From: Chitinibacter sp. SCUT-21
GTDB taxonomy: Bacteria; Pseudomonadota; Gammaproteobacteria; Burkholderiales; Chitinibacteraceae
DNA length: 64,000 bases
Direction: 5' to 3'
NCBI GenBank assembly: GCA_041874755.1
Contig: CP102611.1
Coordinates: 930,001-994,000, forward strand
The notes under the pieces were generated by a model. It made no database searches. It saw nothing but the letters and a program-made list of their open reading frames with translations, and was not told where the DNA came from. Positions 58,376 to 64,000 of this stretch are shown piece by piece (position 1 is the stretch's first letter; the number at the start of each line of letters is the position of its first letter). The translations under genes were made by a program, and so were the position numbers.

Positions 58376-58756
58376 CTACGGTGTAAATCCCCGAATCATC
58401 ACTTGCCGCTCAATTCGCTGGGCGCGCAACAATTGCTCTAGCACCGCCAGCGCCGCCTCAGCATTGGCCGCGCCGCACATAAATAAATCGACCGCCGCAT
58501 AGCCGTGCTCGGGCCACGTGTGGATGCTGATGTGCGATTCCATCAGTAGCAGCATGCCGGTGACGCCTTGCCCTGCGCCAAAATGATGGAAGTGCTGCTG
58601 TAGCACTGTGGCTTGGCCCGCTTGTGCCGCCGCGAGCATGGCCTTGGCAATCAGCGCTGGATCGGCCAAGGCGGCTACATCGCAGCCTTGCAAATCGGCA
58701 ATCAAATGACGGCCCACAGCCAAGGCTGGCAGGGGCGGGATAGATTCCAATTTCAT
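58376..58756 (-). CDS. speD: S-adenosylmethionine decarboxylase proenzyme (SpeD-like)
   Basis: Makes decarboxylated SAM, the aminopropyl donor for spermidine. The 126-aa prokaryotic class 1 proenzyme has the self-cleavage site LLMESHISIHTWPE with Glu73-Ser74; Ser74 would become the pyruvoyl cofactor. FMCG with Cys94 supplies the proton-donor cysteine. The start overlaps the lipoprotein gene at 58753 by 4 bp (ATGA). It ends the cluster whose divergent partner at 63719 is a membrane spermidine-synthase-like protein, so the two may share an aminopropyl pathway. Confidence 0.9.
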   Translation of the reverse strand: MKLESIPPLPALAVGRHLIADLQGCDVAALADPALIAKAMLAAAQAGQATVLQQHFHHFGAGQGVTGMLLLMESHISIHTWPEHGYAAVDLFMCGAANAEAALAVLEQLLRAQRIERQVMIRGFTP

Positions 58757-58914
58757 TTATGCCCGCCTCCAGAGCTCCAGCCGCCCGACGATGAGCCGCT
58801 GCTCCAACCACGGCTACTGCTTGAAGAAATAGAATCGCTACACGACGAGAGATTAAATAGCGTACAGATCGTAATAATCGCGATACAGTAAATTTTATAA
58901 AAACCGTTGCTCAT
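58753..58914 (-). CDS. Small Ser/Gly/Trp-rich lipoprotein
   Basis: 53-aa gene between the DUF4178 gene and speD. Its start overlaps the DUF4178 stop by one base (TAATG) and its stop overlaps the speD start by four (ATGA), which strongly supports a coding role. The product begins MSNGFYKIYCIAIITICTLF, a short hydrophobic signal, with lipobox LSSC making Cys25 the acylated residue. The mature peptide SDSISSSSSRGWSSG then continues as Ser/Gly/Trp repeats ending in GGGHK. No known function. Membrane anchoring in the envelope is inferred from the lipobox. Confidence 0.75.
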   Translation of the reverse strand: MSNGFYKIYCIAIITICTLFNLSSCSDSISSSSSRGWSSGSSSGGWSSGGGHK

Positions 58915-60392
58915 TAGTCTGATTCACCTTTATTCAACGGCCAATGCAGCATATACGCCGCCATCCCCGTCCAAAACAGCGCCTCGATCACATCGTGCCC
59001 AAATAAAACCAAAGGCAAATTAATCGCCAGCAAAATCATCGTGTATCGCCAAGCTTGGCTGCGTTGATCGGCTTGTGGCTCAATTGAATCCGATTTGAGC
59101 GTTTGCACGTCTTTTTTGCCAAACCATTGCGCGATCTGCGCATTCATCACTTTTTCGGCTTGGCTCCAGACAATTTCGGCGTTGTTTTTTTCTTTGCACA
59201 ACCGCATCGGGCCGTTTTGGTACTCCCACAATTGCACGCGATCGCCCACGCTCACGCGCCAGTTAAACGCGCCCGCGGCGTAACAGACTTTGGCCGTGTA
59301 GCTGTCGTACATTTTGCTATAACGCAGCCCGCGATATTGCGCATGCGCCTCGCTCCAGCTCTCGGGCATTTCGTTCAGCACTTTTACGCGCGACCAGCCG
59401 TCTTTGGCCTCAACCAGCCATTGAAAGCCATGCTGCCAGTTGTGCAGCAGGTATTCGCTCCAATGCGAGTCTTCGTCGTCGGTTTCGACCATTTCGATCA
59501 AACCGATCACCGTCCACTTTGTGCCATTAATCATTGCTGAATCACCGCAATCCAGCGTCGCATGGTAGCGCTCGGCTTCGGTGTGCTTAGTCAGCACCAG
59601 TGCCCGATCGCCCGAGCAATCGACTTCAGAACCACACGCTGCACACACAATTTGCGTCGCGACACCAGCACGATACTGCAGCTGATTACCGCAATTTGGG
59701 CAATCGAGCACATTCGCCGTGCCTTTGAGTCGCCCCGCGCTGCGCTGAATATCGTCATCGCTACGCAGCAATTGCGCTTGCAGATTTTTTAGCTCGACCG
59801 CCTCGCCAACATAGAGTTGGGGATTGGGTTTGGCCGCATTCACATCGGAATAATCAAGCGTTAGAAAACGATCGCCACTACGGCAATCGACCACTTTGGC
59901 GACATAGCCATTGCCAACCACAAACGGCAATTCACCCTGCCCGCCAACGCACTGCGCAGTGCGTTTATCCGTTACCACATAAGCGCGGCCGCCGTGCTCG
60001 TAGCGCATTTCGGGCGAAAGATATTCAAACGGCTGCGCATTGGCCGCGGCGCCTTCAGGCAGTGGCAGCGTGAACATATACTGCCCACAGGTATCGCCCA
60101 GCCAGCCATACTTACCATCGTCAAACGAGACATACCACTCGTTCCATAATCCGGCATCGTAGCGCAGCTGAATCCGGCCAATCACGGTAAACGCGCGGCC
60201 CACAAATACGCCAGACGTGCCGATCTGGAGCGGCGAATAGTCCTCCAGCACCTTGCCAATTTTGCCGATGTCTTTGACCTCATCGGCACTACGCAACACG
60301 GTGGATTGGCAATACTCGCAGACAGCGATCGCCGAAATGGTCGAGCGAAATAAAACCTCAGCCCCGCACGAGGGGCAAGCGGTACGGAACAT
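58914..60392 (-). CDS. DUF4178 protein with zinc ribbons and C-terminal membrane segment
   Basis: 492-aa protein. I start at the ATG at 60392 (MFRTACPSCG), with GGAAAG upstream and TAATG coupling to the gene before it. The N-terminal zinc ribbon is CPSCG...CEYCQ. A first DUF4178-like unit follows (TVIGRIQLRYDAGLWNEWYVSFDDGKYGWLGD region, about 75-115), a second zinc ribbon (CPNCG...CAACG, about 230-255), and a second DUF4178-like unit (TVIGLIEMVE...WLVEAKDGWSRV, about 293-345). The C-terminus is hydrophobic (MILLAINLPLVLFGHDVIEA). Function unknown; the family occurs beside SPFH, DUF350 and SpeD genes. Confidence 0.8.
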   Translation of the reverse strand: MFRTACPSCGAEVLFRSTISAIAVCEYCQSTVLRSADEVKDIGKIGKVLEDYSPLQIGTSGVFVGRAFTVIGRIQLRYDAGLWNEWYVSFDDGKYGWLGDTCGQYMFTLPLPEGAAANAQPFEYLSPEMRYEHGGRAYVVTDKRTAQCVGGQGELPFVVGNGYVAKVVDCRSGDRFLTLDYSDVNAAKPNPQLYVGEAVELKNLQAQLLRSDDDIQRSAGRLKGTANVLDCPNCGNQLQYRAGVATQIVCAACGSEVDCSGDRALVLTKHTEAERYHATLDCGDSAMINGTKWTVIGLIEMVETDDEDSHWSEYLLHNWQHGFQWLVEAKDGWSRVKVLNEMPESWSEAHAQYRGLRYSKMYDSYTAKVCYAAGAFNWRVSVGDRVQLWEYQNGPMRLCKEKNNAEIVWSQAEKVMNAQIAQWFGKKDVQTLKSDSIEPQADQRSQAWRYTMILLAINLPLVLFGHDVIEALFWTGMAAYMLHWPLNKGESD

Positions 60393-60748
60393 TAAAGGCT
60401 TTCCCAACTAGGTAATTGTTTTTTACGGGCATACGCTCTAATGCATAAAGCATAAATAAAGCAGAAGCACACGAAGAACAAAAGAAAACCAATCGAACTC
60501 CAGGTGGCGCCTCTCATTGCAGAAAAGAATGCTGCGAGTAATAGAACACCAAAACGGAAGCAGCCTTGCAGAGCTTCACCACACAGTGAGTTGAAGTACA
60601 TTGGCTTAGTTCTTAAACCTAAAGCCCACTGAGCTCTGAGCAACCAAGGCCATTGCTCCAAGTATTGCCATTCTGTTTCCGCCGTTTTGGCTTGAAATGC
60701 AGCCAAAGCAGCCGCCTTTTTGCGATCAAACTCTACATCTTGCGCCAT
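60392..60748 (-). CDS. Two-TM membrane protein of unknown function
   Basis: 118-aa protein starting at the ATG at 60748, with a strong GGAGGGG site. A charged N-terminal helix (MAQDVEFDRKKAAALAAFQAKTAETEW) leads to two TM segments (about 65-83 and 90-108, FRFGVLLLAAFFSAM and FLLFFVCFCFIYALCI), and a basic C-terminus ends in KKQLPSWESL. I do not recognise it. It is translationally coupled to the DUF4178 gene and lies 2 bp after the GFA gene, so it belongs to the same operon. Confidence 0.7.
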   Translation of the reverse strand: MAQDVEFDRKKAAALAAFQAKTAETEWQYLEQWPWLLRAQWALGLRTKPMYFNSLCGEALQGCFRFGVLLLAAFFSAMRGATWSSIGFLLFFVCFCFIYALCIRAYARKKQLPSWESL

Positions 60749-60750
60749 TT

Positions 60751-61155
60751 TTAGCCCCTCCCCGGCTGCCATTCTTCGTGCTCGGCTAAACCCTCATACG
60801 CCAGCCACGGTTTGCGATGCGACGCCCAAATATGCTGCTCTGGCCGCGCTTGCGGGTCTTCATCCAAAGTCGCAACGCGCAATACCCAAAGCGGGCGCCC
60901 TTCTTTTTTCGCTAGTAAATGGCTGCCGCAGCCTGAGCAAAAATACCGAATCTTGCCCGCCGACGATTCAAATTGACTGAGCAGGTCTTCACCTTGCAGC
61001 CAGCGAAAATCACTCGGCTCTACGCCCGCCGCCGAATTAAAAGCAGCAGCGTGAGTTTTGCGGCAGGTTTGGCAATGGCAGTGCGCAATTGCGCTCGCTA
61101 ATTTGGCGACTTCATATTTAACCGCACCGCAGGCGCATGAACCTTGCAAGCTCAT
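60751..61155 (-). CDS. GFA/CENP-V domain zinc protein
   Basis: 134-aa member of the glutathione-dependent formaldehyde-activating/CENP-V fold. It carries the zinc ligands in pattern: CAC at residues 7-9, HCHCQTC at 25-31, and FCSGCGSHLL at 72-81. Its partners may be thiols or formaldehyde adducts, but most members have no tested activity. The start overlaps a 35-aa gene by 4 bp. Its place inside a DUF4178-SPFH-DUF350 operon is unusual. Confidence 0.85.
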   Translation of the reverse strand: MSLQGSCACGAVKYEVAKLASAIAHCHCQTCRKTHAAAFNSAAGVEPSDFRWLQGEDLLSQFESSAGKIRYFCSGCGSHLLAKKEGRPLWVLRVATLDEDPQARPEQHIWASHRKPWLAYEGLAEHEEWQPGRG

Positions 61156-61259
61156 TCTTTATCCTTGTCCCGCTTATCGTGATATTCATCAAACGCCCAA
61201 TATGCCCACATCATGCAGATCGCGCCGATCACGCCCAAAATCATCACCAAGGTATTCAT
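61152..61259 (-). CDS. 35-aa single-TM membrane peptide
   Basis: Short gene before the GFA gene, overlapping it as ATGA, with GCGAGA upstream of its ATG. The product has one TM (MNTLVMILGVIGAICMMWAY) and a charged tail (DEYHDKRDKDKE). The composition and the coupling support expression, but there is no family to compare. Its role could be to tune a membrane partner such as the two-TM protein; this is speculation. Confidence 0.6.
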   Translation of the reverse strand: MNTLVMILGVIGAICMMWAYWAFDEYHDKRDKDKE

Positions 61260-61288
61260 TGAATCTCGCTTTAAGTACTGTTGAATGT

Positions 61289-61576
61289 TTAAACCGCTTC
61301 GCTTAGCGTTACTTTGATTGAATCAGTCAAACTCGGCGCAATTTGAATAAAGCGTTGCAAATAATCCTGCTGGCCATGTAATTCAAAATCAGCTTTAGAT
61401 TTAAACCGTTCAATCATCGTGTAGGTTTTGTCGCAATCAACGGCACGATGCAAGGCATAGCTCAGGCAGCCACTCTCAGCGCGGGTCGGCGCGATCAGGC
61501 TTTGCAACTGGGCCTGCAATTCATTTTGCTGACCTTCTTTACTGATAAATTCGGCAATACAAACGATTTCGCTCAT
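61289..61576 (-). CDS. ABM-family protein (antibiotic biosynthesis monooxygenase fold)
   Basis: 95-aa dimeric alpha/beta-barrel protein. The start is the ATG at 61576 (MSEIVCIAEF), with TGGA at 7 nt. The pattern EIVCIAEFISKEGQQNELQAQL, then SGCLSYALHRAVDCDKTYTMIERF, fits the YgiN/LsrG type of ABM proteins, which act on quinones, haem or small carbonyls, or just bind ligands. Function here unknown. It lies between the SPFH gene (17 bp upstream) and the 35-aa gene. Confidence 0.82.
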   Translation of the reverse strand: MSEIVCIAEFISKEGQQNELQAQLQSLIAPTRAESGCLSYALHRAVDCDKTYTMIERFKSKADFELHGQQDYLQRFIQIAPSLTDSIKVTLSEAV

Positions 61577-61593
61577 GTCTATTCCACTCACAA

Positions 61594-62700
61594 TTAGCCA
61601 ATCAATTTTTTCAATACTTCCGCTTTGGCGCTATCGTAATCGGCTTGGCTAATCAAGCCCTGATCGAGCAAGCCTTTGAGCTGGGCTAGCTTGGCTTGTG
61701 GGCTGTTGGGATCGGCTGGCGCAGTACCCTGCTGAGGTACTGGCTGTTGCACTCCTCCTGCCATTACCCCCACGCCCATACCCCCATCGGCACCAATAAC
61801 GACTCCAGCGCCCGCCGGCGCTGCTACGCCGCCTAGCCCCAAAGCATTGGTCATCGCGCCCGCCATCACTTGGCCGACGCCGACACCAGCGGCCATACCC
61901 GCGCCAATGCCTGCCAAACCACCTTCGTTTTGCGCCGCGAGCGGAATGGCGTTGGCGGCTTGGTATTGCGTGTAGGTTTGCATATTGCCGATCATGCCCA
62001 TCGTGATGCGCGTGTCGATAGCTTTTTGCAGTTCTTCAGGCAAGCTGATGTTTTCCACCGCGAAGTTGTCGAGCTCAAGGCCGTATTTGGCAAACACCGG
62101 CGTTAACGCTTCGCTGATTTTCTGGCTCATCAGGCCTTGATTGCCGGCCATATCGAGGAATGGTACGCCTGCGCCACCCAAGGCTGAGGTCATCGTGGCG
62201 ACGACGAGGTTGCGCAATTGCAGTTCTAAATCATCACGCGTGTATACCTCACGCGTGCCGCTGATTTCGCTAAAAAACAGTTTCGGATCGACCAATTTAT
62301 ACGAATACACGCCAAACGCGCGCATCCGTACCATGCCAAAATCAGCGTCGCGTATCGTGATCGGCTGCGGCGTGCCCCATTTACGGCCAAGCTGCAGGCG
62401 GGTACTAAAGAAATAAACGTCCGATTTAAACGGCGACTCGAACAGCTTGTCCCAGTTTTTCAGGTAAGTGAGCACCGGCAGCGTTTGCGTGGTCAGCTTA
62501 TACATGCCCGCGCCAAACACATCGGCGACTTGGCCTTCATTAATAAACACCGCCGCCTGCGATTCACGCACTGTCAGGCTGGCGCCATACTGAATCTCGA
62601 AATCGGCCATCGGATAGCGATACGCCAACACGCCATCGCTGTCCTCATTCCACTGCAGAATGTCGATAAATTGCTTTTTAATAAATGAACCGAGACCCAT
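61594..62700 (-). CDS. SPFH-domain protein with C-terminal SHOCT domain
   Basis: 368-aa protein of the YdjI/virion-core-like SPFH branch. I start at the ATG at 62700, with GGAG at 6 nt. The N-terminal FIKKQFIDILQWNEDSDGVLAYRYPM and SLTVRESQAAVFINEGQVADVFGAGMYKL open the SPFH domain, which runs to about residue 220. A Gly/Ala/Met-rich hydrophobic stretch (about 250-315) follows, then a Pro/Gln linker and a SHOCT helical pair (LAQLKGLLDQGLISQADYDSAKAEVLKKLIG). SPFH proteins assemble into membrane-associated oligomers. It is probably the scaffold of this operon. Confidence 0.88.
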   Translation of the reverse strand: MGLGSFIKKQFIDILQWNEDSDGVLAYRYPMADFEIQYGASLTVRESQAAVFINEGQVADVFGAGMYKLTTQTLPVLTYLKNWDKLFESPFKSDVYFFSTRLQLGRKWGTPQPITIRDADFGMVRMRAFGVYSYKLVDPKLFFSEISGTREVYTRDDLELQLRNLVVATMTSALGGAGVPFLDMAGNQGLMSQKISEALTPVFAKYGLELDNFAVENISLPEELQKAIDTRITMGMIGNMQTYTQYQAANAIPLAAQNEGGLAGIGAGMAAGVGVGQVMAGAMTNALGLGGVAAPAGAGVVIGADGGMGVGVMAGGVQQPVPQQGTAPADPNSPQAKLAQLKGLLDQGLISQADYDSAKAEVLKKLIG

Positions 62701-62745
62701 GATGCGCTCCATCTGCTAGGCAAAAATTAATCAAATACCGTGAAA

Positions 62746-62859
62746 TTAAAAAAGACCACCGAGTAATTCAACAACCCAATCAAGCCCCGATTCCAAACCC
62801 CAATCCAGCGCCTCTTCAACGAAATCAGAATACCAAGACTCTTTCTTTTGCTGTTCCAT
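62746..62859 (-). CDS. Small acidic Trp-rich peptide
   Basis: 37-aa ORF, MEQQKKESWYSDFVEEALDW... ending in VELLGGLF, with AGGG 7 nt before its ATG. The helix is acidic and Trp-rich with an amphipathic look. It sits in the 233-bp gap between the SPFH gene and the protein at 62934 and is transcribed in the same direction. An alternative 60-codon frame over the same bases (62727-62909) is basic and unlike a real protein. Expression is likely but not certain. Confidence 0.5.
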   Translation of the reverse strand: MEQQKKESWYSDFVEEALDWGLESGLDWVVELLGGLF

Positions 62860-62933
62860 CGCGTGCCCTTTTTGCAATCAAACCTCATATGAACAGTGAG
62901 CAACGACACTGGCTGCTCGAAAGCCTGAAAACA

Positions 62934-63254
62934 TTACACTTTAATCACCATACTCATCACGAGGCCTGCGAGAATTAGATTTGCAGCACAACGACTTAAA
63001 GCATGAAATGAAAGGCTGAAAATGACATTACCTAACTCATGTTTACGATCGGTTGTTAATTCAGGTTTTATAAGCAATAAGCTGCCTTGCAAAATTGCAC
63101 CTATCGCTAATGACAAACCTCCCCACGAGAATAAGTCGTAGGTTTTTCCCGTCATAACTAAGCCAAAACTCAATAAAGCCAACCCAAGAACGTAAGCAAA
63201 AATCAAATTCCCACGCGACATTGCAAGTTCATTGTTTGAATTCGATTGATTCAT
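62934..63254 (-). CDS. Three-TM membrane protein of unknown function
   Basis: 106-aa protein beginning MNQSNSNNELAMSRGNLIFA, started at the ATG at 63254 that overlaps the DUF350 stop by one base (TAATG). Three or four TM segments are visible (NLIFAYVLGLALLSFGLVM, FSWGGLSLAIGAILQGSLLL, FSLSFHALSRCAANLILAGLVM). I do not recognise a family. The coupling to the DUF350 gene makes a joint membrane complex plausible. Confidence 0.65.
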   Translation of the reverse strand: MNQSNSNNELAMSRGNLIFAYVLGLALLSFGLVMTGKTYDLFSWGGLSLAIGAILQGSLLLIKPELTTDRKHELGNVIFSLSFHALSRCAANLILAGLVMSMVIKV

Positions 63255-63655
63255 TAAGACAAACACCCCGCATTAATCACACCGACCGCGACCGAAATAC
63301 TCCCTGCCAGTACACCCACAGCAACGTTATTATTCATAATCTGCTCAGGCATACCCTTAATACATTTCACCAAAAAGGCGTAAACCAAAATTTGCATCAG
63401 GCCGGCTAGCGCACCCCAGATGACAAAAAACACCAAGTGATTTAAATGCCAAGCGCTCGAGGCCAGTGCGAATGAAAAGCCGATCAGGGCTCCGGCGAAC
63501 GATAAGGCGGCGGCTACATTGCCTTCGCGCACCAGCTTGATTTCGTCGTACGGCGTGATTTTGATGTACAGCATCGCAAACACAATCAGCATCGCCACGC
63601 CGCTGGCGAGGTAGCTGAAATAGCCAATTAATGGCGGTAGATAGCTTTCTAGCAT
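63254..63655 (-). CDS. DUF350 membrane protein (YjfL family)
   Basis: 133-aa protein with four TM segments and the family sequence KITPYDEIKLVREGNVAAALSFAGALIGFSFALASS (about 33-68), where the I-x-EGN-x-AAALSF part is the DUF350 core. MNNNVAVGVLAGSISVAVGVINAGCLS closes the protein. The biochemical role is unproven. It is the first gene of the minus-strand cluster, and its promoter region (63656-63718) is shared with the divergent spermidine-synthase-like gene. Confidence 0.9.
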   Translation of the reverse strand: MLESYLPPLIGYFSYLASGVAMLIVFAMLYIKITPYDEIKLVREGNVAAALSFAGALIGFSFALASSAWHLNHLVFFVIWGALAGLMQILVYAFLVKCIKGMPEQIMNNNVAVGVLAGSISVAVGVINAGCLS

Positions 63656-63718
63656 GCGTATTCCTTACTAGGTTCAGGCATAATGCTGTCATTCTCTACC
63701 AAACAAATAAAAATATCC

Positions 63719-64000
63719 ATGCGAGAAAAACTGCTGATTCTTTCGGTTTTTATTGTGGCTTCTTGCGGCTTGGCTTACGAGTTGATTGCCGCGGCGCTCG
63801 CCAGCTATTTAATGGGCGATTCGGTGCTGCAATTTTCATCGATTATCGGCTGCTATTTATTTGCGATGGGCATCGGCTCGCATCTGTCTAAATATGTACC
63901 CGAAGCACGCACGCTCGATCGCTTTATTGAAATTGAGCTTTTGGTCGGCCTGATCGGTGGCCTATCGGCGACGATGCTGTTTGTCGTGTTCGCGTGGGCG
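63719..64000 (+). CDS. Membrane-bound spermidine-synthase-like protein, N-terminal part (runs off window)
   Basis: The open frame starts at the ATG at 63719 and runs to base 64000 without a stop (94 codons visible). The sequence begins MREKLLILSVFIVASCGLAYELIAAAL and has the G-x-AYEL-x(4)-S-YL-x-G motif, then SIIGCYLFAMGIGSHLSK, typical of the multi-TM N-terminus of membrane spermidine synthases (SpeE fused to an MFS-like membrane domain). The catalytic aminopropyltransferase domain would lie past the edge. It is divergent from the DUF350 operon and could use the decarboxylated SAM made by the SpeD at 58376. Confidence 0.85.
   Translation, partial: MREKLLILSVFIVASCGLAYELIAAALASYLMGDSVLQFSSIIGCYLFAMGIGSHLSKYVPEARTLDRFIEIELLVGLIGGLSATMLFVVFAWA

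Follow-up and report, generated by a model that had tools for sequence, protein, structure and literature searches.

Bacterial operons that combine a seven-transmembrane (7-TM) spermidine synthase fusion with DUF350, a lipoprotein, DUF4178, PspA and a CesT/Tir chaperone form group 2 of a published survey (PMC11237479), which also lists variants carrying band-7-SHOCT and S-adenosylmethionine (AdoMet) decarboxylase and proposes polyamine monitoring or aminopropylation of other substrates. Here we analyzed an operon of this kind from Chitinibacter sp. SCUT-21, located at the end of a 64,000-nucleotide stretch (the window; positions 930001–994000 of a 3.45-Mb genome in a single contig), where 11 minus-strand genes and one divergent gene were identified. 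We propose, with a probability of about 55%, that the operon encodes a dedicated envelope protein-modification system, in which the AdoMet decarboxylase SpeD would supply decarboxylated AdoMet (dcAdoMet) and the 7-TM aminopropyltransferase, here called SpeEtm, would aminopropylate a C-terminal lysine. Six genes are central to this proposal (lengths in amino acids, aa):

58376..58756, minus strand: SpeD, AdoMet decarboxylase, 126 aa (Pfam AdoMet_dc, 2e-36)
58753..58914, minus strand: 53-aa anchored "K-tail" protein with an N-terminal signal/anchor, lipobox LSSC, Ser/Gly tail and C-terminal His-Lys
58914..60407, minus strand: DUF4178 protein, 497 aa from a TTG start, with an ATG at 60392 (Pfam DUF4178, 4e-25)
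61594..62712, minus strand: SPFH (Band_7_1) protein with a C-terminal SHOCT domain, proposed membrane scaffold (Pfam, 8.9e-77)
63254..63655, minus strand: DUF350 (YjfL) membrane protein (Pfam, 3.9e-33)
63719..64000, continuing to genome position 995230, plus strand: SpeEtm, 7-TM and aminopropyltransferase domain, 503 aa (Pfam Spermine_synth, 5.8e-37)

The window shares with group 2 the 7-TM spermidine synthase fusion, DUF350, DUF4178, a lipoprotein and a linked AdoMet decarboxylase, and a non-putrescine substrate was suspected there as well (PMC11237479). It differs in having SPFH-SHOCT instead of the dyad of PspA and CesT/Tir proteins, neither of which was matched among the ten window proteins scanned, and we filed it as the band-7 variant rather than as group 2 itself. 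The gene neighborhood is thus already published, as had been noted for some of these genes in the original prediction, which was made from the letters of the window alone. The lysine-ended tail is the least variable of the features seen here; an invariant Lys end, a DUF4178 fusion and a substrate role of the lipoprotein were not found in the accessible part of PMC11237479. Neither a C-terminal-lysine tail of these systems, joined to DUF4178 or seen as a substrate, nor aminopropyl-lysine or an aminopropylated protein surfaced in the open-licence literature searched, which omits most subscription papers and all preprints.

Occurrence of the lysine-ended tail

The 53-aa gene is joined to speD by an ATGA overlap and to the DUF4178 gene by a 1-bp overlap, both as originally predicted. 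Its product ends in GGGHK, with the Lys codon at 58756–58758 and the stop codon at 58753–58755. A search for the DUF4178 protein in 41 genomes (the window's own and 40 relatives) gave 21 positives, and the wide regions around these (L022–L042) were mapped with the window's proteins. Homologues of the 53-aa protein were found in 19 of the 21 loci, and all 19 terminate in HK. The lipobox Cys is limited to 10 of the 19 (L022–L031), and the constant features of the family are the N-terminal anchor, the Ser/Gly tail and the final two residues.

The survey was extended to 141 loci by adding 40 wide regions (L073–L112) from the 44 carriers of SpeEtm found at E <= 1e-40 in 398 Pseudomonadota genomes, and the best 80 of at least 575 relatives in a scan of GTDB genomes (L113–L192). 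The GTDB set spans beta- and gammaproteobacteria, Acidobacteria, Bacteroidetes, Verrucomicrobia, myxobacteria, Leptospiraceae and Elusimicrobia. A DUF4178 gene was present in 104 of the 141 loci, and every one of these 104 had a Lys-ended tail, which in 78 cases was encoded by the small gene that follows and in 26 cases formed the C-terminus of DUF4178. In L154 and L162, DUF4178 itself also ends in K, apparently by chance, with a separate tail adjoining, and both were counted as separate. Five loci skipped by a stricter filter for open reading frames (L139, L144, L145, L146 and L165) were read individually and were all K-ended. The penultimate residue was H in 87 tails, G in 12, V in three and I in two, although one of the G residues reflects a frame picked wrongly in L023 (VGK), where the actual tail ends in GHK. 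Tails from Betaproteobacteria, Acidobacteria, Bacteroidetes, myxobacteria, Verrucomicrobia, Leptospiraceae and Elusimicrobia had little in common beyond the last Lys.

When the same downstream rule was applied to other core genes as controls, a K-ended frame followed SPFH in 5/69 cases, SpeEtm in 4/137, SpeD in 3/81 and DUF350 in 4/57. With a hydrophobic segment and a final K preceded by H, G, V or I also required, 75/78 frames after DUF4178 passed, compared to none in all four controls. The core proteins themselves ended in K in 3/352 cases (SpeD 1/82, SPFH 0/70, DUF350 0/57, SpeEtm 2/143). When frames outside the core genes were filtered without regard to their last residue, by the composition of residues −19 to −2 and a hydrophobic stretch, the filter retained 89 frames ending in K and 38 ending in every other residue combined. 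We also considered whether the terminal Lys merely results from the ATGA overlap (AAATGA) and rejected this idea, since in the other wide loci the homologues mostly end well before speD, with gaps of up to 144 bp, and the fused tails terminate DUF4178 itself.

A Lys-ended tail was also found in 23 of the 37 loci lacking a DUF4178 gene, the least certain being that of L177, which lies ~5 kb from SpeEtm. These tails belong to proteins of 273–387 aa, several with a lipobox, that end in RRGK, SRGK, RFGGK or SRGGK, to a 576-aa protein ending in GRSGK, and to peptides of 79–100 aa ending in GSGK or GGK. For the remaining 14 loci, DUF4178 was located elsewhere in the genome in 10, with a tail beside it in nine. 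In the gammaproteobacterial loci L102–L104 and L106–L112, lipoproteins of 319–387 aa with a Lys-ended Ser/Arg tail adjoin SpeEtm, and their operons include proteins that resemble PspA/CesT by eye; the one tested, from L108, had no Pfam match.

Fold and topology of SpeEtm and its partners

The divergent membrane spermidine synthase of the original prediction was confirmed; it has 503 aa and is predicted to be a 7-TM protein. Its AlphaFold2 model (predicted local distance difference test, pLDDT, 91.4; predicted TM-score, pTM, 0.77) showed seven long helices (from 2–32 to 192–211) followed by an aminopropyltransferase fold, and the nearest solved structure was the triamine/agmatine aminopropyltransferase of T. 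thermophilus (1uir; phmmer 5e-34, Foldseek 5.5e-18). The motifs GGGDG and DxPDP were invariant in all 56 aligned SpeEtm sequences. In spermidine synthases, the acid of GxG(D/E)G is needed for binding of decarboxylated AdoMet (PMC10349129). Acidic residues of the membrane part were kept as well (E21 in 55/56, E73 in 52/56, E116 and D142 in 56/56).

Basic residues were unevenly distributed between the two faces of the 56 sequences. The mean number of K + R was 2.89 for the N-terminus and 1.96, 3.04 and 2.91 for loops 2–3, 4–5 and 6–7, but 0.25, 0.82 and 1.05 for loops 1–2, 3–4 and 5–6 and 1.34 for the segment after helix 7. This pattern favors a predicted topology with the N-terminus inside and the catalytic domain outside. 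The small tail proteins have a single anchor with a basic N-terminus, so their tails should lie outside too. Among the fused forms, nine of the 26 C-termini were inspected by eye, and one membrane segment preceded the tail in seven, three in L122 and two or three in L075. The tail is thus predicted to lie on the periplasmic side, as is the catalytic domain. Gene content, linkage, the invariant Lys and the kept catalytic motifs are read directly from the sequences, whereas the 7-TM fold and the side are predictions.

The DUF4178 protein consists of two Zn-ribbon/DUF4178 halves followed by a C-terminal hairpin of two transmembrane (TM) helices. Its AlphaFold2 model (pLDDT 83.8) is beta-rich, with helices at 448–469 and 473–492, and a Foldseek search with this model returned nothing meaningful (top E 5.8e-4, TM-scores ~0.1). 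The SHOCT match at the C-terminus of the SPFH protein (5.7e-6, 26.3 bits) is slightly below the Pfam cut-off of 27. No NCBIfam match was obtained for the SPFH and DUF350 proteins or for the three short proteins of 53, 35 and 37 aa.

SpeD and the supply of dcAdoMet

SpeD matched the NCBIfam equivalog TIGR03330 with 129 bits (cut-off 75.65), and its sequence carries the motif ESHxxxHTWPE and a downstream Cys. It is the sole AdoMet_dc match in the window's genome. SpeD was found in 22 of the 41 genomes, namely all 21 that carry the DUF4178 protein, plus G038, in which SpeD and a spermidine synthase domain lie within one 410-aa frame. Strong spermidine synthase matches (>=96 bits) occurred in those same 22 genomes. 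The window's genome has two further frames with weak spermidine-synthase-domain matches, at 2483558–2483932 (47.4 bits) and 2901534–2901902 (38 bits), which are 273 and 279 aa long. This class also occurs in relatives without SpeD, and its donor is therefore probably not dcAdoMet.

Core and cargo genes of the operon

All genes named in the original prediction were present in the window as Pfam or NCBIfam matches or as open reading frames. The genes other than the six above are:

60392..60772, minus strand: DUF6404 protein with two TM segments, 126 aa (Pfam, 2.8e-11); cargo
60751..61155, minus strand: GFA-domain protein (Pfam, 2.2e-27); cargo
61152..61259, minus strand: 35-aa single-TM peptide, found in L022, L027 and L029 and as a fragment in L023; cargo
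61289..61576, minus strand: ABM-domain protein (Pfam, 4.4e-15); cargo
62746..62859, minus strand: 37-aa acidic/Trp-rich peptide (ATG at 62859), family in L022 and L025–L028; cargo
62934..63266, minus strand: 110-aa membrane protein with a weak DUF350 match (E 0.011); cargo

For the DUF6404 gene, a start at the ATG at 60748 would give a 4-bp overlap with the GFA gene.

SpeD, the 53-aa protein, DUF4178, SPFH, DUF350 and SpeEtm occurred all together in 19 of the 21 wide loci (L022–L040), so the predicted operon is real beyond chance. The core order is DUF350, SPFH-SHOCT, DUF4178, 53-aa protein and SpeD, plus the divergent SpeEtm. SPFH was present in all 21 loci and DUF350 in 19; L041 had DUF4178 and SPFH only, and L042 had DUF4178, SPFH and SpeEtm. 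In L032 (G011), SpeEtm was split into three frame pieces, by assembly error or decay, with the remaining operon intact.

The other genes were found less often: GFA in eight of the 21 loci, DUF6404 in five, the 37-aa family in five, the 35-aa gene in three plus the L023 fragment, and ABM in one. A tblastn search with the 110-aa protein matched none of the other 20 loci. These genes are confined to two slots, between DUF350 and SPFH and between SPFH and DUF4178, and the content of the slots varies between genomes. The operon of this genus and of its closest relatives thus comprises six compactly arranged core genes and two slots of changing content. Judging from their distribution, GFA, ABM and DUF6404 are cargo specific to certain lineages and not machine parts, as are the 110-aa protein and the peptides of 35 and 37 aa. 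The original prediction had called the GFA and ABM genes specific, which holds but marks them as cargo.

The original prediction had also given equal weight to the three short genes and named their conservation in relatives as a check. Only the 53-aa gene, whose terminal lysine had been overlooked, is part of the core; the other two are too narrowly distributed. The pooled pN/pS ratio was 0.25 for the 53-aa gene (10 loci), indicating purifying selection on its sequence, 0.49 for the 37-aa gene (five loci) and 0.50 for the 35-aa gene (four loci, including the L023 fragment, which inflates the value).

Other genes were observed in the same slots. Between DUF350 and SPFH, L025 (5874–6206), L026, L027 and L029 encode a repeat protein of 109–112 aa (KIDGFHLG...KVDGFVFG...) that is bactofilin-like by eye and had no Pfam match in the two copies tested. 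Between SPFH and DUF4178, L025 (7512–7805) and L029 (7180–7461) encode a protein of 93–97 aa that has a single TM segment and the pattern CxxC...CxxC, which occupies the position of ABM in the window and had no Pfam match. A Pfam search with seven cargo genes from L025, L028 and L029 gave no match.

Comparison with other terminal and lysine modifications

The fungal enzyme NHMT is a 7-TM spermidine-synthase-like protein that methylates the N-terminal His of secreted proteins (PMC10349129). It shares with SpeEtm the 7-TM part, the spermidine-synthase-like domain and, if our proposal for SpeEtm is correct, a terminal residue of secreted proteins as the target. In NHMT, an Ile replaces the acid of GxG(D/E)G and AdoMet serves as the methyl donor (PMC10349129), whereas SpeEtm keeps the acid (D292, 56/56), is linked to SpeD and has a C-terminal Lys as its proposed target.

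The DUF350 operon of E. coli K-12 (yjfIJKLMC), grouped here with YgiBC, resembles the window in having DUF350, polyamine chemistry and a lipoprotein whose tail is rich in Ser, Gly and Arg. YjfJ belongs to the PspA family, and YjfC is named a peptide–spermidine ligase in RefSeq; the E. coli peptide–spermidine ligases YjfC and YgiC are reportedly treated by Pederick et al. 2023. The E. coli system uses an ATP-grasp ligase and a Gly-Gly end, compared to SpeD/SpeEtm and a Lys end in the window, and no ATP-grasp ligase was matched among the ten window proteins scanned. The Ser/Gly/Arg tail of the E. coli lipoprotein YjfM ends in GG. From 28 DUF1190 loci, the 23 with a YjfC-like neighbor were used, and the loci left out were L229 (ending in YGG), L240 (ending in EGS), and L241, L243 and L244 (weak matches). 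The 22 tails read (L217–L242, without L231) ended in GG in 17 cases, in Ser in five and in Lys in none. The Gly-Gly end of the YjfM/YgiB-family tails is likely the end to which spermidine is attached. In both systems the last residue of the tail fits the chemistry of the adjoining enzyme, a free Gly carboxylate for a ligase and a free Lys amine for an aminopropyltransferase. In our view, this contrast is the best argument for the Lys as a substrate.

Lysine side chains lengthened by an aminoalkyl group are known from hypusine/deoxyhypusine and from the lysine–polyamines of silaffins. These differ from the proposed system in that other enzymes act, on internal lysines of proteins that are not known from the bacterial envelope.

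Proposed mechanism and alternative explanations

We infer as follows that the lysine is the acceptor, that the reaction is periplasmic and what the product does. SpeD would decarboxylate AdoMet to dcAdoMet, the aminopropyl donor, and the 7-TM domain of SpeEtm would keep the aminopropyltransferase domain at the membrane. SpeEtm would then move the aminopropyl group onto the lysine that ends a flexible tail, at its epsilon-amine; this tail is carried by the 53-aa lipobox protein in the window and by DUF4178 fusions or larger lipoproteins elsewhere. In its side chain, lysine is similar to the butylamine end of putrescine, so the reaction would be spermidine-synthase chemistry with a protein end as the acceptor. 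DUF4178, the proposed cytoplasmic partner of the tail, together with SPFH and DUF350 would gather tail and enzyme into a membrane patch. Once lengthened, the polycationic end would either bind polyanions of the envelope or signal the envelope's state. Modification before export is an alternative to a periplasmic reaction. For the latter, dcAdoMet may, speculatively, depend on acidic residues within the 7-TM part to reach the site.

Several points weigh against this proposal. A periplasmic aminopropyltransferase domain would require dcAdoMet to cross the membrane. The N-terminal segment of SpeEtm is both basic and acidic (mean D + E of 2.14 vs 2.89 for K + R), so its predicted orientation rests mainly on the loops. 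The 141 loci are not mutually independent, because 80 were the best matches to one query and 20 came from one family, and a genome-wide look gave no tail for five of them (L084, L101, L105 and L142, without DUF4178, and G435, with DUF4178). SpeEtm also scored 691.6 bits against the NCBIfam polyamine aminopropyltransferase equivalog NF002956, well above the cut-off of 472, and the C-terminal Lys of an envelope protein has another use in Braun's lipoprotein. The proposal itself draws on sequences and models.

The equivalog score and the canonical catalytic motifs would both be expected if SpeEtm were a membrane-bound ordinary aminopropyltransferase with a free polyamine product, perhaps for the cell surface, and the Lys tail a regulatory or docking element that is never modified. 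The tail might in that case be a polyamine mimic that senses the product or gates the enzyme. Li et al. 2019 (Biochem J 476:2579), on clusters of SpeD, an MFS/7-TM spermidine synthase and DUF350, reportedly found active AdoMet decarboxylases but no spermidine, and fusions that failed to complement a spermidine synthase mutant, which would speak against an ordinary enzyme. A mimic, moreover, need not be the last residue every time. PMC11237479 cites Li et al. 2019 for aminopropylation of other substrates. In favor of a free product, surface spermidine in Pseudomonas appears in the title of a reference in PMC11107197. We regard this explanation as unlikely, though the most serious of the alternatives to lysine aminopropylation.

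The window protein resembles Braun's lipoprotein in being a small envelope lipoprotein with a lipobox Cys and a C-terminal Lys, the residue through which Braun's lipoprotein is attached. An L,D-transpeptidase could thus link the Lys to peptidoglycan and tie the membrane complex to the wall, with the aminopropyltransferase having a different substrate or tuning the wall link. YkuD-domain genes were present in 27 of 30 Lys-tail genomes, including the window's (two matches), but a Braun-type anchor leads one to expect an L,D-transpeptidase in every tail genome, and Ralstonia soli, Saezia sanguinis and an Acidobacteria metagenome-assembled genome had no YkuD match. YkuD is common anyway, and none was found among the annotated operon genes. 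The distribution of the tail follows the aminopropyltransferase, and the tail is often joined to DUF4178 through an inner-membrane segment. The Ser/Gly-rich disordered tail, the aminopropyltransferase operon and the frequent lack of a lipobox Cys also differ from Braun's lipoprotein, and an anchor of this type seems improbable.

An envelope lipid or other small molecule as the substrate, with tail and scaffold merely positioning the enzyme, fits a membrane-bound enzyme and the organization of membrane patches by SPFH proteins (PMC11237479) but is very unlikely, since it leaves unexplained an invariant terminal Lys conserved by position and not by its surroundings. The original prediction had supposed that a lipid or a peptide of the envelope is modified; the 53-aa protein with its invariant Lys agrees with the latter, and nothing pointed to the former.

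Implications for polyamine biology

The proposed lysine aminopropylation suggests that a small amine arm on an envelope lysine, rather than ordinary spermidine, is the product of SpeEtm in many bacteria. Whether C-terminal lysine aminopropylation (perhaps repeated) of envelope proteins is a so far unrecognised bacterial post-translational modification is, in our estimate, an even bet. To that same even estimate belong two further parts. The target tag with its terminal Lys would have moved among a 46–66-aa anchor, the C-terminus of DUF4178 and lipoproteins of at least 300 aa, and the sister ATP-grasp system would put spermidine on Gly-Gly ends, so that two chemistries lead to one product, a polyamine-tipped lipoprotein.

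The proposal specifies what membrane aminopropyltransferases would act on, at precisely which residue and with what change in mass, which mass spectrometry can address; the modification, if found, would be a new protein modification. If true, it would also give a function to DUF4178 and DUF350 and account for small genes that are easily missed by annotation. SpeD is usually taken as proof of spermidine synthesis. If the proposal is true, SpeD and the 7-TM "spermidine synthase" of many bacteria would instead serve protein modification, and the polyamine predictions made there would be wrong.

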